Source of the DNA: a virus
Strand: one strand, 5' to 3'
IMG/VR virus record: IMGVR_UViG_3300022925_000209
Location: 1 to 21,705 of that record
DNA: 21,705 nucleotides
The notes under the pieces were generated by a model. The model was not told the DNA's origin and made no database searches. It saw only the letters and a list, made by a program, of their open reading frames with translations. Below are positions 8,272 through 16,580 of this stretch, piece by piece. Position 1 is the stretch's first letter. Each line of letters starts with the position of its first letter. The position numbers were made by a program, and so were the translations under genes.

Positions 8272-10014
8272 ATGCTAAAGAATTCATACGGGCCTACACT
8301 TACTATCAGTGAACATATTCACGCAGAAAAGTATCGTAGTGAAGGAGAAACCTTCCAAGAAGCCATGACTAGGGTTGCTGAAGCCCTTAAAGATGATGAA
8401 ACACACTTCAATCAATTCCGCACTATTCTGTATAATCAGCGGTTTTTGCCAGCGGGTAGAGTGCAATCGGCTATGGGCGCTCCTCGCACTGTCACGCCGT
8501 ACAACTGCTTTGTAAGCGGTACAATTGAGGATAGTATGGACGGTATCATGGACGCCGCTAAAGACGCCGCTAAGACAATGCAGCTTGGCGGTGGGATAGG
8601 TTATGATTTCTCTACACTACGTCCTCACGGGGCGCTTATAAAAAGCCTAGACAGTCGTTCTAGTGGCCCACTAAGCTTTATGAAAATCTTTGATAGTGTC
8701 TGCCATACGATTGCTTCTGCAGGTCACCGTAGAGGCGCTCAGATGGGCGTGTTAAGGGTGGATCACCCCGATATCGAAAAGTACATCAGCGCAAAGAATA
8801 ACAGCACCGAATTAACAGGATTTAATATTTCTGTTGGGGTGACTGATGCGTTCATGGATGCCGTTAAATCAAACAGTGATTTTGATCTTGTGTTTGAGGG
8901 GCGTACATATTCCACGGTAAATGCCCGTAATTTGTGGGATAGTATTTTACGTTCTACTTGGGATTGGGCAGAGCCTGGAATCCTGTTTATTGATCGAATT
9001 AACCGTAAGAATAACCTGCATTATTGCGAGAAGATTGTTGCCACTAATCCTTGCGGAGAGCAACCATTACCGCCTTACGGTGCTTGTCTTTTAGGATCAT
9101 TTAACCTCACTAAATACATCGTAGAGCATGATGGTAAATACGTCTTCAATATGAACATGTTGAAGGAAGATATTCCTTATGTGGTACGGGCAATGGATAA
9201 TGTGGTTGATCGTGCGACATACCCTCTACCGCAACAAGAGAAGCAAGCCAAAGATACACGCCGTATGGGATTAGGCGTCACAGGTGTTGCAAATGCGATT
9301 GAAGCGTTGGGCTTTGATTTTGGATCAGATGAATTCATTCGAGTACTTGAGGATATTATGAGTACTATTCGTGACGTTTGCTATGAAACCTCTATCGAAC
9401 TGGCAAAGGAGAAAGGTGCGTTCCCTCTGTTTAAGAAGGATTACCTAACCAGCGAATTTGCTATGACCCTGCCTACCAAGATCCGCACAAAGATTGCCAA
9501 GTATGGAATTCGTAACAGCCACCTTCTTAGTGTTGCCCCTACAGGCACAATCAGTCTAAGCGCAGATAATGTGTCTAGCGGAATTGAACCTGTATTTAGC
9601 TATGTAACCAAGCGAACCATACAAACTTTTGATGGGCCAACAGAAGAGATTGTTGAAGACTACGGATACAGAGAATTTGGGGTCAAAGGTAAAACGGCAG
9701 ATCAACTATCAGTATTCGATCATGTTCGTGTTTTAAACGTAGCTTCCCGATATGTGGATAGTGCCTGCAGCAAAACCTGTAATGTAGGTGATGATGTTAC
9801 ATGGGAACAATTTAAACAAGTCTACATGGACGCTTATGAAGGCGGTTCGTCTGGTTGTACAACCTTTCGTGCCAGCGGAAAGCGTTTTGGAATTTTGAAT
9901 GCTGCTTCATCAGAAAACGATGTTGAAGAAAAGCCCGCAGAAAAGGACAATTTCATTGAAGAAGGTGGAGCGTGTTACTTTGACCCATCAACTGGATTAC
10001 GGAAGTGTGAGTAG
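8272..10014 (+). CDS. nrdJ: Class II (adenosylcobalamin-dependent) ribonucleotide reductase
   Basis: 580 aa, reduces ribonucleotides to deoxyribonucleotides for phage DNA synthesis. Active site: NPCGE (N259, radical C261, E263), redox pair C79 (YNC) and C272 (GACLLGSFNL), and the PTGTISL loop (423-429). The C-terminal CYFDPSTGLRKC supplies the shuttle cysteines C568 and C579. HRRGAQMG (152-159) and the absence of an NrdB gene or an NrdA-type ATP-cone indicate class II, which needs vitamin B12 from the host cell. Class II enzymes are common in marine podoviruses. The ATG follows the previous stop directly, with AAAGGGAG as ribosome-binding site. Confidence 0.93.
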   Translation: MLKNSYGPTLTISEHIHAEKYRSEGETFQEAMTRVAEALKDDETHFNQFRTILYNQRFLPAGRVQSAMGAPRTVTPYNCFVSGTIEDSMDGIMDAAKDAAKTMQLGGGIGYDFSTLRPHGALIKSLDSRSSGPLSFMKIFDSVCHTIASAGHRRGAQMGVLRVDHPDIEKYISAKNNSTELTGFNISVGVTDAFMDAVKSNSDFDLVFEGRTYSTVNARNLWDSILRSTWDWAEPGILFIDRINRKNNLHYCEKIVATNPCGEQPLPPYGACLLGSFNLTKYIVEHDGKYVFNMNMLKEDIPYVVRAMDNVVDRATYPLPQQEKQAKDTRRMGLGVTGVANAIEALGFDFGSDEFIRVLEDIMSTIRDVCYETSIELAKEKGAFPLFKKDYLTSEFAMTLPTKIRTKIAKYGIRNSHLLSVAPTGTISLSADNVSSGIEPVFSYVTKRTIQTFDGPTEEIVEDYGYREFGVKGKTADQLSVFDHVRVLNVASRYVDSACSKTCNVGDDVTWEQFKQVYMDAYEGGSSGCTTFRASGKRFGILNAASSENDVEEKPAEKDNFIEEGGACYFDPSTGLRKCE

Positions 10015-10016
10015 CC

Positions 10017-10193
10017 ATGAATAAACCCTTTGATGAAGGCTACGAAGCCTTCTTTAGGGGGGATTTCATATGTAACTACAGGCTCCGCTCTCACTACCAT
10101 CGTGAGTGGCAGCGGGGCTTCAATACAGCATATTTTTACAACAGGAATACACATGTACAAAGCATTCCAATCGAAAGACTTCAACAAGTATGA
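10017..10193 (+). CDS. Ribosome modulation factor (RMF)-like protein, 58 aa
   Basis: An ATG two bases after the RNR stop opens a 58-codon frame. Residues 7-38 read like the RMF pattern: EGYEAFFRG, then CNY in the place of the family's NPY or CPY, then EWQRGFNTA in the place of WxxGWxxA. RMF binds ribosomes and makes them hibernate as 100S dimers; phage and prophage relatives exist with unknown roles. The resemblance is by eye and the middle Pro is missing. The last 41 bases overlap the start of the next nuclease in another frame. GGAAG lies 11 bases before the ATG. Two RNA hairpins (10035-10052, 10080-10120) lie inside the gene. Confidence 0.55.
   Translation: MNKPFDEGYEAFFRGDFICNYRLRSHYHREWQRGFNTAYFYNRNTHVQSIPIERLQQV
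10035..10120 (+). other. Strong RNA hairpins within the RNR-nuclease junction
   Basis: Hairpin 1 is a perfect 7-bp stem GAAGGCT (10035-10041) with AGCCTTC (10046-10052) and an ACGA loop. Hairpin 2 has 10080-10089 paired with 10111-10120 (10 bp, two G-U), one C-C mismatch, then 10091-10095 paired with 10105-10109 (5 bp, one G-U). No T run follows closely, so these are not plain terminators. They may slow or separate expression of RNR and the downstream nuclease, or act as an RNase processing site. Confidence 0.45.
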
Positions 10194-10572
10194 CGAAGCT
10201 GCCAGAAATCGTGCTAAAGAGTTTTGGGAGAGCCAAGGATATACCTGCACGGATCACGATGATGAATATGATGTAGACCTTGTAGTAGAAAAGAATGGTA
10301 AGCGGTTTTACTGTGAGGTTGAGGTTAAAACCGTCTGGCATGGCAAAGAATTTAAGTATGATACCATTCATATTCCTGTGCGGAAGGCTAAGTTCTTAGG
10401 TAAACCTACGCAGTTTATGGTCTTTAATAATAGCCTTACCCATGCTGCCGTAATAGGTCGCAAAAAGGTGCTAAATGCGACTAAAGTAGATGTGCCTAAC
10501 AGGAAGATTGCCTTTGGCGAAAAGTTCTTCGATATACCGAAAGAAGATGCCATATTTGTGCAAACTATATAA
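10153..10572 (+). CDS. PD-(D/E)XK nuclease-like protein, 139 aa
   Basis: Last gene of the early operon. EYDVDLVV (D42) and CEVEVKTVW (E57, K59) give the D...ExK core of a restriction-endonuclease fold. Tyr- and Lys-rich strands follow. The ATG at 10153 has AGGA 6 bases before it and is preferred to a TTG at 10030 in the same frame. That longer start would add 41 residues of low-complexity Ser/Thr/Gly character and would run across the RMF-like gene. The target (host DNA, branched DNA or packaging intermediates) is unknown. Confidence 0.75.
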   Translation: MYKAFQSKDFNKYDEAARNRAKEFWESQGYTCTDHDDEYDVDLVVEKNGKRFYCEVEVKTVWHGKEFKYDTIHIPVRKAKFLGKPTQFMVFNNSLTHAAVIGRKKVLNATKVDVPNRKIAFGEKFFDIPKEDAIFVQTI

Positions 10573-10608
10573 AAGAAAAAAACCTCAAGGCGATTGACCT
10601 CAAGGCTT
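10573..10608 (-). terminator. Minus-strand terminator ending the late operon
   Basis: CCTCAAGG occurs twice (10583-10590 and 10598-10605). On the minus strand this reads CCUUGAGG twice, which pairs with itself through six Watson-Crick and two G-U pairs. Three more pairs extend the stem to 11 bp (10580-10582 with 10606-10608), with the 7-base loop 10591-10597. It is followed on that strand by a T-rich run (10573-10582). The plus-strand version would have two A-C mismatches, so the hairpin works in one direction only. It lies 91 bases past the end of the 1133-aa gene. Confidence 0.75.
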
Positions 10609-10661: not shown

Positions 10662-10667
10662 AGATTG

Positions 10668-10700
10668 AACCCTCAGATTTAGGTCTGGGGGTTTTTCTTT
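10668..10700 (+). terminator. Rho-independent terminator ending the early operon
   Basis: A 10-bp stem AACCCTCAGA (10668-10677) with TCTGGGGGTT (10684-10693, one G-U), loop TTTAGG, followed by TTTCTTT to 10700. It reads as a terminator only on the plus strand and stops the replication and RNR transcript before it enters the opposing late genes. Its end touches the stop codon of the 1133-aa gene on the other strand. Confidence 0.85.
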
Positions 10701-13700
10701 ACTGAGGAACAAGATCCATCATTTGCTGATCTACATTGTTTTGATCGTACATATATTCTTTCTCAGCACTTACTGCTTTAGTTGTACCCGCAGTTATTGC
10801 TGTAATTAAGTTTTCATAAACTAAAGGATCCATTGGGTATGTATCGTATTTTTTAGCTAATTCTAGAAACCTCTCTGGGTCTGCTAAAATATTATCTAAA
10901 ATTTTCTGCGCCCTGTTAGTTGTATCTAAAGCATCAAATGTTGCACCTGCTATCGAACGAATTTTTGCACCAGTTCTATTGAGAGGCCCAATAAGTGTCA
11001 TAATCATTCGATTAGTTGCTTGTACCGCTTCTTTATTAAATGCCGTTGCAGATACCCCCGGAACAGGAGTTGCCTGATTAGATTTATCAATCATACGGGC
11101 TGCATCTAACAGGATCTCAAAAGTTTCCATTCGCTCTGGTTGTTCAGAGTAAATTTCTCTGCCTATCGAAAGTATATTGTTAGCCTCTTCCAGTGTTCGA
11201 TCAACATTAGCACCCTTTAATGTTGTAGCCCCGCCGCTTTGTACTTTCGCACCTGATACTTTTTCTGACAGATATCTTAGATAAGCAGTTTCCATACCAT
11301 CACGAACTACAGAAGCACGGGCTGGGGGCATATCATCTAATCGGGCAACAATATCCTGTATTGTTCCTATGCCTTCAGATTCTCTAAATATTTTAACAAA
11401 AGCATCTTCTGGGTTTAGGTTTGTAGCCATTTCCCTTCCGTATACATTACTTAAAAACTTACCCAATTCTGTTTTTTTAACTTCTTTTCGTGTCTGTGAT
11501 GCGACTTCCTCTGCAGAAGTAAGGGCAGCTTCTAGTAATTTTTTATTTCCCGCTGCAGATTCAATTGAAGCAACTAAAGAATTAATTTGTTTAGCCCGTT
11601 CAGGAAAGGCTTGGTTAAGTGAATCAGCGTATTGTTGTAGTCGATCCGACATTCCTTTTAGTGCTTCAGGCGTCATAGATCCTTCTGACCTTACCTTTGA
11701 AGCAAACCCATTAATTACATCCGTAATCATGTAATCAGCAATTGCCTTTGGGTCTTCTACTTGCTCAAGTGCTGTTTTCATATTTAATACAGCATCAGCA
11801 TTATTACCCTCAAGAACAGAGGTTACCAGTTCACGGCTACGCTCTTTAAAACCAGCTTTCTGAGTTCCCCTTGTCATAACTGGCTCATAGAGATCGCCAA
11901 AATCAGCTACTACTCCACCATCTCGCCAAACAGGGGCGTATTGATCGGAATAATATGTATATGCTTTCGTGGCAGCATCTGCCGCCTCTTCGTCTGCATT
12001 TTCCGCAACCCACTGTACCTGATCATCAATAGCACGTTTAACATCTATAAGGCGTTTGGCTACCATATCATCGCCACGCTTATAGGCCTGATCAATTAGG
12101 TTAGAAAGTTCTGGGCGAACCTTGTTGTATAAGGTTTTAAAATCAACGCCACCGTTGAGTAACTCTTCAGCAAAGTCTCCTGCTTCTGTAGTAGTTGTAG
12201 TTGTTCCCTGTACCCCAAATGGTACAAAGGGCGCATCTTCTACGGCTTCTTTTGGTTTTAAAACAGACCTAATTGTATTGATAAGATCAACACTCTTGGT
12301 TCTTGTACCGCTTGTATCCAAAAGGTTTATTTGTTTTACGGCCTCTTCTACCTGTGCGGCAAAGCTACTATAATCAAAAGGCGTACCGTCTGGTATTGCA
12401 TTATACAGATCGTCTTTTGTTTTGCTCATTGTTTCTTTGGCTTGCATCAAACCGTTTCTGATTTGATCAAAGGAAGCAGATTTATCTGTAACAATGTCCG
12501 TTCCAGTTACCTGCTCTAAACGACTAATCTGACCACTAAGTTCCAGATCTGCATTCTGGATACCTTCGACTACCTGTTTTGCTGCAGCGTCAAAATTAGT
12601 TTGTGCATCTACGGCGTTAATATCAGCGGATGCTACGGAAGCACGGGCATCTGTTGCCAATTCATCTGCGGCAGCCGCAATAGTATCAACTTGTTCTGTA
12701 GGAACCTCTGAGGATATTTCCGCAAGGCGGTCATCCACTTGTTTTTGTAGTTCTCTAGCAGGCCCTTCAGAAGCAGCAATTAACTGCGGGTTATTAGATG
12801 CTTTTTGTATATTACCTGCACGAACCCCTGAAATTCTTGCTATATCTTCTGGTTCTGCAGTGCCCCTCAAAAGAGCAGAAAGAGTATCTACTGGTACTTC
12901 TTTAGCAGCAAGATTTTGTATCTCAGGAAGAAGAACAGTTTTATTTTCTTCAACAATTCGGGCAAGTTCTCTTTTTGCTTCTGCTATTTCTTGAGGTGTA
13001 GTAGAAAAATCAATCTTTATAAGGCTTTCGGTTAATTCATCATAGATCCTACGGGTAATAGTTTGTTCTCTTCCTGCGTCTAGTAATGGAAGGATAGTGA
13101 ATTTAGATGCCAGTTTAGCGGCTTGTGCGGTTGTCATTACAACCCCTGAAAGCGCACTGTTTAAAAACATACCTTCAACAAGCACATTTACACGCTGCTC
13201 AATTATGTCTTCTGCCTTGCTGTCGCCAAGATCAAGGCCCTGCGCTATTGGGATAAGAGCAGCCTTTTCTCCACCAAGGAATAAGGTTCCTTCATCTGTA
13301 CTGGTTGTAGCTGCAGCGCCTGTTTCGGCGGCGGCAAGAACTGCAAAACCTCTAATTACTTTAGGTAGAGCCTTTGTAACTACCTGTGCGGCAGCACCGC
13401 CCCCAAAAGAAGTTATTACCGCAGGAACAGCATCTGTTAGGATAGCATCCCCAAAGCTGTCGCCAGTATCGACATTAACGATTAACGGGCTTATGGCATC
13501 TACTGCGCCCTCTGCCCCTAATACTTCTGCTCCTGCAGCGCCCGCTTCAAGTATAGCCCCAGCACTTTCACTAAGACCCAAAGCAATTTTACTAAATTCA
13601 TCTACCTTGGCTTCAGTGTCATCAAAAGCCGTCGATGCCCTGTCCAAATCACCAGTTAGTAGCCCCGCAATAACATCATAAGTATTGTCCAACATACCAT

Positions 13701-14100
13701 TTTTACCAAACATCTTCATATCTGGTCGGGGTATATATTCACGCCTACCTGTTTCGGGGTCTTCGTATACTGCGTAACCCAAACCAAATAAAGGCTTTAT
13801 AACATCAGGGCTTTCCATGAGAGTATCGTATTTTTCTCTAGCCTCACTATAAGTAAGGCCTGAGTACATCTGTGTGCTAATAGCATCAGGTTCTTCTTCA
13901 GCTATTTCTTTTAAAGTAGGCTCATCTTCTTCGCCCTCTTGTGTATTTTCTAAATCATCAGAAGCAAAAGGATCAACGATGCTAGTTTCACTACTTGCCT
14001 CTACAGGAACAGGCTCTGTGTTGTCTGTTTCTATAGGTATAACACTACTTGTATTTGTTTCGTCTTCTTCAGTAGCAAATGGGTCTACAATATCTACCAT
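10699..14100 (-). CDS. Large virion-associated protein, 1133 aa, candidate internal/ejection protein
   Basis: Last gene of the late operon, starting at a TAATG overlap with the 826-aa gene. The first 75 residues are very acidic and contain a duplicated IVDPFA (4-9 and 41-46). Residues about 200-335 are unusually hydrophobic and small-residue rich (AVPAVITSFGGGAAAQVV, MFLNSALSGVVM), long enough to cross a membrane. From about 350 to the end the protein is mostly helix with many Ala, Glu and Gln. Size, place and this mix of membrane-like and helical parts fit the ejected internal virion proteins of podoviruses (such as T7 gp15/gp16). No lytic transglycosylase motif is recognised, so the role is inference. 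Confidence 0.6.
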   Translation of the reverse strand: MVDIVDPFATEEDETNTSSVIPIETDNTEPVPVEASSETSIVDPFASDDLENTQEGEEDEPTLKEIAEEEPDAISTQMYSGLTYSEAREKYDTLMESPDVIKPLFGLGYAVYEDPETGRREYIPRPDMKMFGKNGMLDNTYDVIAGLLTGDLDRASTAFDDTEAKVDEFSKIALGLSESAGAILEAGAAGAEVLGAEGAVDAISPLIVNVDTGDSFGDAILTDAVPAVITSFGGGAAAQVVTKALPKVIRGFAVLAAAETGAAATTSTDEGTLFLGGEKAALIPIAQGLDLGDSKAEDIIEQRVNVLVEGMFLNSALSGVVMTTAQAAKLASKFTILPLLDAGREQTITRRIYDELTESLIKIDFSTTPQEIAEAKRELARIVEENKTVLLPEIQNLAAKEVPVDTLSALLRGTAEPEDIARISGVRAGNIQKASNNPQLIAASEGPARELQKQVDDRLAEISSEVPTEQVDTIAAAADELATDARASVASADINAVDAQTNFDAAAKQVVEGIQNADLELSGQISRLEQVTGTDIVTDKSASFDQIRNGLMQAKETMSKTKDDLYNAIPDGTPFDYSSFAAQVEEAVKQINLLDTSGTRTKSVDLINTIRSVLKPKEAVEDAPFVPFGVQGTTTTTTEAGDFAEELLNGGVDFKTLYNKVRPELSNLIDQAYKRGDDMVAKRLIDVKRAIDDQVQWVAENADEEAADAATKAYTYYSDQYAPVWRDGGVVADFGDLYEPVMTRGTQKAGFKERSRELVTSVLEGNNADAVLNMKTALEQVEDPKAIADYMITDVINGFASKVRSEGSMTPEALKGMSDRLQQYADSLNQAFPERAKQINSLVASIESAAGNKKLLEAALTSAEEVASQTRKEVKKTELGKFLSNVYGREMATNLNPEDAFVKIFRESEGIGTIQDIVARLDDMPPARASVVRDGMETAYLRYLSEKVSGAKVQSGGATTLKGANVDRTLEEANNILSIGREIYSEQPERMETFEILLDAARMIDKSNQATPVPGVSATAFNKEAVQATNRMIMTLIGPLNRTGAKIRSIAGATFDALDTTNRAQKILDNILADPERFLELAKKYDTYPMDPLVYENLITAITAGTTKAVSAEKEYMYDQNNVDQQMMDLVPQ

Positions 14101-16580
14101 TACTTTAATACCCCGTAAGTTTTAGACCAGAAATCTGTTAAATCCTTATCGCTTACACCAGGATTTTCTTCCCTAGCACGGGATAAGAAATTTTCTAAAG
14201 TAGGTTTTCCTGATAACCATGAGAATGCGTCTGCCAACCCATTATCATTTGCATAAAGACCTGTTGATTTTCCGTAACCTTTAAATAGGTTTTGATCACG
14301 CCGCTGTAACATAATAACAGCATCATCTTCGTTGAAGTCATTTATCAACCTCTGGGTCTTTTTAACGACTGCTTCTGCTTGACTTTTCAGGTTAGCACTA
14401 AAGGTTGTATAGGTGTTACCTTGATCCAATATGGCAAGTGCTTTTTCAAAGTCTTTGTTAGATAGTCCTTGCCCTGATTGTCCTAGAGAACTTGCTGCAA
14501 AGGTGAACGCCAGTTTAATCTTCTCCGCTTGAAACAAGGCAGCTTTTCTTGTGGTTTCGTCTAATCCGGGGATACTATTTAGATATTGAGTTACTGCGCT
14601 ATCAATACTTGTCTCAATATCTGATAACGATCTAGTTTCGTTAAACGTATCTATGATAGTTCCAACTTCTACGCCTACTCTTTTTATAAATGGAAGTACT
14701 TTACCACCAACTGTAGTTAAGATAGCAGGATTACCCCCCATTTCAGGGTTAACCAAATCATCAAGTTTCTTTGCTGATTCCAGCGTAGTAGCCATACCTA
14801 TACGCTGCTTTTTAAGAGGCTGGATAGTAGATTGGTTAATCTTAATTACACCATCGTATATATCATCTTGTAGATCCAAGTTTATAACCTGTTCTCCCTC
14901 AACAGGAACACGGGTTTTAGTAGGATCATTAAGATCAACATACTGATTATTTTCATTGAGTTTAGCAGTAGTACTTTCAATTTCTCCCGTTTCAGATTTA
15001 TACTTAATTAGGAAAGTTTCGCTTCCTGGTAAAATCTTAGGTGCTTGAGCATTCCTGTTATTAAGAAGTTCTTGTAACTTTACAATATTTTGAGGTGCAG
15101 TGCCTTCCGTATTTATTATAGAAGTAATAGTAGCGGTATCTACATCGTCATAGTCTGCAATATTAAAATCATTTATTTCTTGTGCTGCAGCGGATGCGCT
15201 TTTCTGTACTCTTACCCTATCAATGTCTGCCTTATAATTAGAATCTGTAACGGTAGACGATAGAATTTCAAGAACATCATCACTTAGTTTATCTAAATCG
15301 ACTATACTTAGAGGCTTATCTGCAGATATTGCCTTGCCGTATTCTCTTACTCTCTTAGCACCATCGGCATCACCAGCATCTTCAAGTTCTTTGGCGTTGC
15401 CTTCAAAGTTATCTTTAGTAATTGTACTCCATTCGATTGGTTCCTTGATTTCCTTTTGTGCCGCTATTTCTGCATCAATAATCTTTAGGTCATCATCTTT
15501 AGCGCCCAAAGATTTAGCAACCCGCCGCTTCTGTTCCAAAGCAGCTTTATCCAATCCTACAAAAGAGTCAGGCTCTACTATAGTTTCCCACGGTTTAAGG
15601 TTTTTCTCTTCAGCATCCACAAGTGCTTTAATAGCAACAAATTCGTCTGTATTCGTTTCCTTTAATAACTCTAAGGTCTGAAGCTGGTTTTTTGCAGCTT
15701 CTAAATCACCAGCAAGAGAATTAATTGTAGATTTTAAACTTCTTCCTTTAAGCAGTGCTTCTCTGTCTTCCATTATTTTTAAGAGATCCGCATCTAAGGT
15801 AACATTGTCGCCCTTGAGTTCATCTTTATATAACTCAATGTCTTCTAATGTTTTTAATCTTGTGTAATCGAGTTTAGCAGGGGTTTCCCCGAATGGAGTG
15901 ATTTTAATTCCACGCTTTTCTATTTCCACAGGTTCAAGGGATGCATCATTTTCACCTTCAGGGCCAAGAATAGCATCCATCTGCTTTTCCATGCCCTTTT
16001 GCATACTACCTTCGCCTGATTTAGCTAAATCATCTACAGAGTTTGCAATTTGGTCTGCCGCCTCATTATCATCTCTACTATCAGCATCATAATAAGCATT
16101 TAATGTACTTTTAGAAGCAACATCCAAATCTACATCACTACGCTGTAGCAGCGGCCCCTGTAATTCACGGCTCTCAGTTTCAGTTGTAAATTCCAGCCTT
16201 CCGCTTTCCACCATATTCTGAGTAGCAGTCATAACTGCACCAACATCCCCATCCATAAGGGTAAGTTGCTGTTGGAAATAATTTACCGCCTGCGGGTTAT
16301 TGTTTGTACCAGAAAAAGTTTCAGATAAGATCAGGGCATTCTTTTTATTCTTCTGTGCCTTGTCTTCTGCTTTACGTTGCCGTTCAGCCGCAGCCCTTCG
16401 TGCCGCTCTTTCCTCTTTAGCTTTAATCTTTGCTTCTTCCTTTTCATCAGCCGCTTGCTGCATCCAGCTTTTAGCAATGATGTCTGCGCCCTTTGAGAAG
16501 GCTAAACCAAATGAATCTTCGTTTTTGTAATAGTTCTTTTTACCAGAAGAAACCGCCGCTTGTGTATCACGCCAACCCAT
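14100..16580 (-). CDS. Large helical virion-associated protein, 826 aa
   Basis: No family recognised. Residues 43-80 form a highly charged Lys/Glu/Ala/Arg helix (coiled-coil-like). The rest is mainly acidic helical segments with many Asp, Lys and Gln, and lacks cysteine-rich or enzyme motifs. AGAGGAG lies 8 bases before the ATG. It overlaps the 185-aa gene by 14 bases and the 1133-aa gene by 1. The pair of giant proteins at the end of the late operon resembles internal core/ejection protein pairs of podoviruses; that role is inferred from context and size only. Confidence 0.6.
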   Translation of the reverse strand: MGWRDTQAAVSSGKKNYYKNEDSFGLAFSKGADIIAKSWMQQAADEKEEAKIKAKEERAARRAAAERQRKAEDKAQKNKKNALILSETFSGTNNNPQAVNYFQQQLTLMDGDVGAVMTATQNMVESGRLEFTTETESRELQGPLLQRSDVDLDVASKSTLNAYYDADSRDDNEAADQIANSVDDLAKSGEGSMQKGMEKQMDAILGPEGENDASLEPVEIEKRGIKITPFGETPAKLDYTRLKTLEDIELYKDELKGDNVTLDADLLKIMEDREALLKGRSLKSTINSLAGDLEAAKNQLQTLELLKETNTDEFVAIKALVDAEEKNLKPWETIVEPDSFVGLDKAALEQKRRVAKSLGAKDDDLKIIDAEIAAQKEIKEPIEWSTITKDNFEGNAKELEDAGDADGAKRVREYGKAISADKPLSIVDLDKLSDDVLEILSSTVTDSNYKADIDRVRVQKSASAAAQEINDFNIADYDDVDTATITSIINTEGTAPQNIVKLQELLNNRNAQAPKILPGSETFLIKYKSETGEIESTTAKLNENNQYVDLNDPTKTRVPVEGEQVINLDLQDDIYDGVIKINQSTIQPLKKQRIGMATTLESAKKLDDLVNPEMGGNPAILTTVGGKVLPFIKRVGVEVGTIIDTFNETRSLSDIETSIDSAVTQYLNSIPGLDETTRKAALFQAEKIKLAFTFAASSLGQSGQGLSNKDFEKALAILDQGNTYTTFSANLKSQAEAVVKKTQRLINDFNEDDAVIMLQRRDQNLFKGYGKSTGLYANDNGLADAFSWLSGKPTLENFLSRAREENPGVSDKDLTDFWSKTYGVLK

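Follow-up and report, generated by a model that had tools for sequence, protein, structure and literature searches.

A conserved small gene behind the ribonucleotide reductase of an HMO-2011-type marine podophage very probably encodes a divergent member of the Rmf/CrpP fold superfamily

In a stretch of viral DNA of 21,705 nucleotides (IMG/VR record IMGVR_UViG_3300022925_000209, positions 1 to 21,705; hereafter the window), positions 10017-10193 of the plus strand are a real, conserved gene. We conclude with high confidence that the product of this phage gene belongs to the Rmf/CrpP fold superfamily, within a divergent subfamily characteristic of HMO-2011-type podophages. Its resemblance to ribosome modulation factor (RMF) is true homology at the level of the fold and superfamily. 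Phage-encoded Rmf/CrpP-fold proteins are already known, as in NF041887 and in the Agrobacterium phage Milano, which has two potential proteins of the RMF domain superfamily (PMC6588377); what is new here is an unrecognised branch in an abundant group of ocean phages. The gene and its surroundings comprise the following features:

8272-10014, plus strand: class II (adenosylcobalamin-dependent) ribonucleotide reductase (RNR), directly upstream of the small gene
10017-10193, plus strand: gene of the small Rmf/CrpP-fold protein, 58 aa, with its ATG 2 nt past the RNR stop codon
10023-10058, plus strand: predicted helix 1, residues 3-14 (AlphaFold and alignments), with invariant G8 (G16 of RMF) and F12
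10059-10091, plus strand: loop, residues 15-25, with G15 (G23 of RMF) and C19-N20-Y21 (C29-P30-Y31 of RMF)
10092-10154, plus strand: predicted helix 2, residues 26-46 (AlphaFold and alignment), with E30-W31-x-R33-G34-F35
10153-10193, plus strand: 41-base overlap with the downstream gene, encoding the variable C-terminus of the small protein
10153-10572, plus strand: PD-(D/E)XK-like gene, 139 aa, with D42, E55, E57 and K59 invariant in 7 homologues

The plus-strand frame at 10017-10193 encodes the 58-residue protein MNKPFDEGYEAFFRGDFICNYRLRSHYHREWQRGFNTAYFYNRNTHVQSIPIERLQQV, followed by a stop codon. A preliminary description of this DNA had reported here a 58-codon frame with the pattern GYEAFxxG..CNY..EWxxGF that overlaps the next gene by 41 bases in another frame, and it was accurate on both points: the pattern is present, and the downstream open reading frame, beginning at the ATG at 10153, is read in a different frame over 10153-10193. 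Relatives were found at 38 loci in viral contigs with the single protein as query and at 375 loci with the family alignment. The gene is intact across hundreds of viral contigs, and of the stops or frameshifts that the same description had named as evidence against it, no stop lies inside the domain in any locus examined. Among close relatives, changes in the gene fall mostly at third codon positions, and dN/dS over the 45 non-overlapping codons is approximately 0.1-0.4, which supports a real gene; the related loci L002, L003, L004 and L052 gave dN and dS values of 0.06 and 0.35, 0.06 and 0.42, 0.08 and 0.50, and 0.16 and 1.31, respectively, against the window, and a further comparison among close relatives gave 0.24 and 0.74. 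The overlapping C-terminus is under constraint in two frames and is uninformative for dN/dS. Read in either of the two alternative frames, these bases gave a dN similar to or greater than dS. Locus L001 represents either the window's own genome or a near copy. A chance open frame beside the RNR gene might be suspected from the shortness of the frame and from the lack of a family match for the single sequence, but conservation, dN/dS and the integrity of the frame across hundreds of loci refute this explanation, to which we assign virtually no weight. Inspection of the sequence before the gene revealed no convincing Shine-Dalgarno sequence at the usual spacing, and the small gene is therefore probably translationally coupled to the upstream RNR.

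The window is an HMO-2011-type marine podophage, closest to Roseobacter phage CRP-235/CRP-3. Its nearest annotated records are the Roseobacter phages CRP-235, CRP-3 and CRP-212, which are HMO-2011-type podophages (PMC6918029, PMC9038755), and its DNA polymerase A shows a weak, partial match to DnaJ CXXCXGXG, a feature reported for the DNA polymerase A of this group. HMO-2011-type phages are described as dominant and widespread in the sea (PMC9038755). The small gene had been described as lying in a gap that is easily skipped, and indeed gene callers passed over it in three isolate genomes, those of CRP-3, CRP-212 and CRP-235, where the open reading frame carries no annotation; a short overlapping gene after RNR is thus being missed in genomes of this group. 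Annotated homologues, all labelled hypothetical, are HMO-2011 ORF20 (AFV50582), CRP-345 gp38 and CRP-1 gp29, which belong to the same subfamily and occupy the same position near RNR/MazG, but are longer and have a basic N-terminal KYDAPL extension. The main text of two papers on these phages (PMC6918029, PMC9038755) contains no word beginning with 'ribosom'. In nearly all loci the small gene lies up to approximately 2 kb downstream of a phage class II (B12-dependent) RNR, at the end of the DNA replication and nucleotide gene block, often adjoined by MazG or by a nuclease-like gene. It is accessory, being present in 39 and absent from 34 of the 73 loci with close RNRs, and no RMF-like gene was found near the RNR of CRP-2, CRP-13, CRP-207 or CRP-603. 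The RNR itself has 580 aa in the window and approximately 640 aa in CRP-345 and CRP-235, both sizes occurring among phages with otherwise similar flanks.

The AlphaFold (AF2) model of the protein is a two-helix hairpin, as in RMF, with a pLDDT of 86.5 overall and approximately 95 in the hairpin. A Foldseek search of 350,542 PDB chains returned RMF (2jrm) as the sole match, with TM-scores of 0.63/0.61 and an E-value of 4, a weak value that can be expected for a chain of only 58 residues. In VIA-align, for which two chains only were compared, the model aligned with RMF of the hibernating E. coli ribosome (9iot_y) over 45 residues at 2.4 Å with a Z-score of 5.7, and with 2jrm at a Z-score of 5.6. 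Some of the structural matches in BFVD are phage proteins that carry the name ribosome modulation factor.

At the sequence level, the small protein alone matched nothing significantly in Pfam, NCBIfam or PHROGs. The profile of the RMF family, PF04957, with which the preliminary description had proposed to check the frame, thus failed to detect the single sequence but did emerge from the family, where no other Pfam model matched as often (14 of 30 members, best E-value 2e-4). Scores of 12.7-18.3 bits against a cut-off of 27.9 leave every family member whose score was read below the curated Pfam gathering threshold. The most frequent NCBIfam match was Rmf_CrpP_fam (7 of 30 members), and no family match rose above the NCBIfam cut-offs (NF041886, NF041887). 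With hhalign, we compared the phage family profile with collected bacterial RMF and Rmf/CrpP-like proteins. The mixed Rmf/CrpP alignment gave a probability of 95.6, an E-value of 1.3e-8 and a score of 44.4, and the divergent Rmf/CrpP-like proteins alone an E-value of 3.4e-8, whereas the match to gammaproteobacterial RMF alone was moderate (probability 40, E-value 3e-4). In controls, 150 column-shuffled phage alignments scored 8.8 on average and at most 15.9 against the mixed set, and at most 17.4 against canonical RMF, while the reversed phage alignment scored 6.5-8.3 (7.5 for the mixed set). The similarity over the whole hairpin therefore exceeds the controls and places the family in the Rmf/CrpP superfamily. 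The sub-threshold PF04957 matches, this controlled profile-profile similarity and the sole fold match in the PDB together establish true homology. The strongest profile-profile match is to the wider set that includes the Rmf/CrpP fold proteins of NF041886, NF041887 ('Rmf_like_phage') and NF041856; the phage subfamily differs from these in falling below their curated cut-offs, in its invariant EWxRG and in its occurrence in HMO-2011-type phages.

Among weak tblastn neighbours of the query (E-values 2-7) are Caulobacter phage Cr30 and Pseudomonas phage Ep020, whose proteins score 35.7 bits (above the cut-off of 27.9) and 25.6 bits with PF04957, respectively. The phage family profile found chance matches only, and not RMF, among PDB sequences, and a single weak match in 398 Pseudomonadota genomes, so that a close bacterial source did not emerge. 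No phage record matched E. coli RMF, and no work on phage RMF together with CrpP turned up in the literature library searched.

Residues tested in E. coli RMF served as the reference for asking which features the phage family has kept (PMC8126665). In RMF (PF04957; E. coli Rmf, PDB 6h4n, 9iot and 2jrm), the ribosome-contact residues are R3, K5, R11 and R45, of which R3 and K5 contact helix 28 and R45 contacts the anti-SD and is needed for dimerisation; alanine substitution of single conserved residues causes a drastic loss of 100S formation (PMC8126665). The phage family shares with RMF its length, the hairpin, A47 and the core pattern G-x2-A...G...(C/N)PY...W-x2-G-aromatic: among the structural residues, G16, W40 and G43 do not vary, and conservation of G23 stands at 80%. 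At the loop proline, the window member has N, and 47% of the family have P. In helix 2, W31, R33, G34, F35 and N36 correspond to W40, G42, G43, W44 and R45 of RMF, and it is here, and at the N-terminus, that the two differ. The basic N-terminal residues are missing: R3 and K5 fall mostly on gaps, and R11 is not retained. All family members have N or D in place of R45 and an invariant R in place of G42, and W44, itself one of the structural residues of RMF, is replaced by F. The phage family also differs from RMF in its location in a phage replication module and, as noted, in its sub-threshold Pfam scores. Net charge is +2 for the nearly neutral window protein, +7 for E. coli RMF and on average +11 for the HMO-2011 branch, which carries the basic KYDAPL extension. 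Since the structural core is kept and the contact residues are lost, the fold family is shared with RMF, while its known ribosome-binding chemistry is not. The missing contacts, together with the moderate gammaproteobacterial match, thus indicate a divergent Rmf/CrpP-fold subfamily and not an RMF orthologue; the earlier designation of the protein as RMF-like stands for the superfamily but not for RMF itself.

The downstream 139-aa protein had been called a nuclease. Its invariant D..E-x-E-V-K, a PD-(D/E)XK-like motif, makes it a plausible candidate PD-(D/E)XK nuclease, although it has no significant match among Pfam and PDB profiles. Defence-system models gave no match. Among the RNR-selected loci, 39 carry the RMF-like gene and 34 lack it; the nuclease-like gene occurs in 38 of the former and in none of the latter, counts that refer to loci and include redundancy among related contigs. 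An obligate cassette of the two genes holds in the close RNR clade but fails family-wide: no homologue of the nuclease-like gene was seen at 65 loci that carry the RMF-like gene, and the Cobavirus-type CRP-4 carries the nuclease-like gene without the RMF-like gene, so the pair is not obligate. In CRP-345-type phages the PD-(D/E)XK-like gene lies upstream, not downstream, of the RMF-like gene, and in other lineages (L008, L097, L044, L030 and L279) an adjoining gene resembles, by eye, a different PD-(D/E)XK-type protein, with such motifs as VDVKTK, LQIKC and IEVKSE. Replacement of glutaredoxin by the RMF-like gene as the RNR partner was considered and rejected, as few loci have glutaredoxin, four have both genes and the phage family alignment contains no conserved cysteine.

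The Rmf-fold phage protein may be a small docking protein, in which the Gly/Trp/Phe core would hold the hairpin together, with contact made through the face of helix 2 that is specific to the subfamily (E30, R33, N/D36). A leading target would be the host small ribosomal subunit, through contacts other than those of gammaproteobacterial RMF, and the outcome would be a damping or biasing of host translation while phage DNA is being replicated. We regard such a ribosome-targeting mechanism as a tentative possibility. Only the shared fold and the strong net positive charge of the HMO-2011 branch (mean +11) point to the ribosome, and the absent or replaced RMF contacts, the +2 charge of the window protein, the moderate canonical match, the accessory nature of the gene and the Foldseek E-value of 4 argue against it. 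The more specific proposal, in which a re-tooled Rmf-fold protein binds host ribosomes by a new set of contacts and redirects translation during infection, is rather doubtful. The mechanism is nearly tied with an equally tentative alternative, an Rmf/CrpP-fold adaptor unconnected with the ribosome that binds and modulates a protein of the nucleotide/DNA module, such as RNR, MazG or the PD-(D/E)XK-like neighbour, of the phage or the host, and the evidence does not separate the two. The adaptor would fit the loss of the ribosome-contact residues, the constant location after RNR beside MazG or nuclease-like genes, and the co-occurrence in the RNR-selected loci; however, the 65 loci without a nuclease homologue and the solitary nuclease-like gene of CRP-4 weaken that association, gene order is conserved in HMO-2011-type phages anyway, and a redox role would lack its conserved cysteine.

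The preliminary description had suggested that the phage could act on host ribosomes, for example by storing or redirecting them during infection; the analysis does not support this, and the R3, K5, R11 and R45 contacts are absent. Dimerisation into 100S particles in the manner of RMF is unlikely, and a true functional RMF, which the common fold and structural core might suggest, is very improbable given that R3, K5, R11, R45 and W44 are all replaced or missing and that single changes to alanine suffice to cut 100S formation by RMF drastically (PMC8126665). Retention of the core with loss of the effector contacts is also what a mimic or antagonist of a putative host Rmf/CrpP-family protein might show, occupying its site without exerting its effect so that ribosomes stay active for the phage; this too is improbable, since PF04957 matches occur in only 99 of the 398 Pseudomonadota genomes and are mostly strong ones of the classical kind. 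Returning to the ribosome-targeting mechanism, the conserved Rmf-fold protein is a testable candidate through which HMO-2011-type phages might act on host translation. Were it to bind ribosomes, it would join bS21, bL9, bL12 and HPF among the ribosome-associated proteins encoded by phages (PMC6375957).

Beyond the PD-(D/E)XK-like gene, the replication module and the minus-strand structural module converge, and at their junction lie two terminator-like hairpins with T-tracts, one per strand (10580-10608, minus strand; 10667-10694, plus strand). Further along, 10699-16580 (minus strand) encodes two large proteins of 1133 and 826 aa, which have no PHROGs match at an E-value of 0.001 and lie near a DNA-ejection-like protein.
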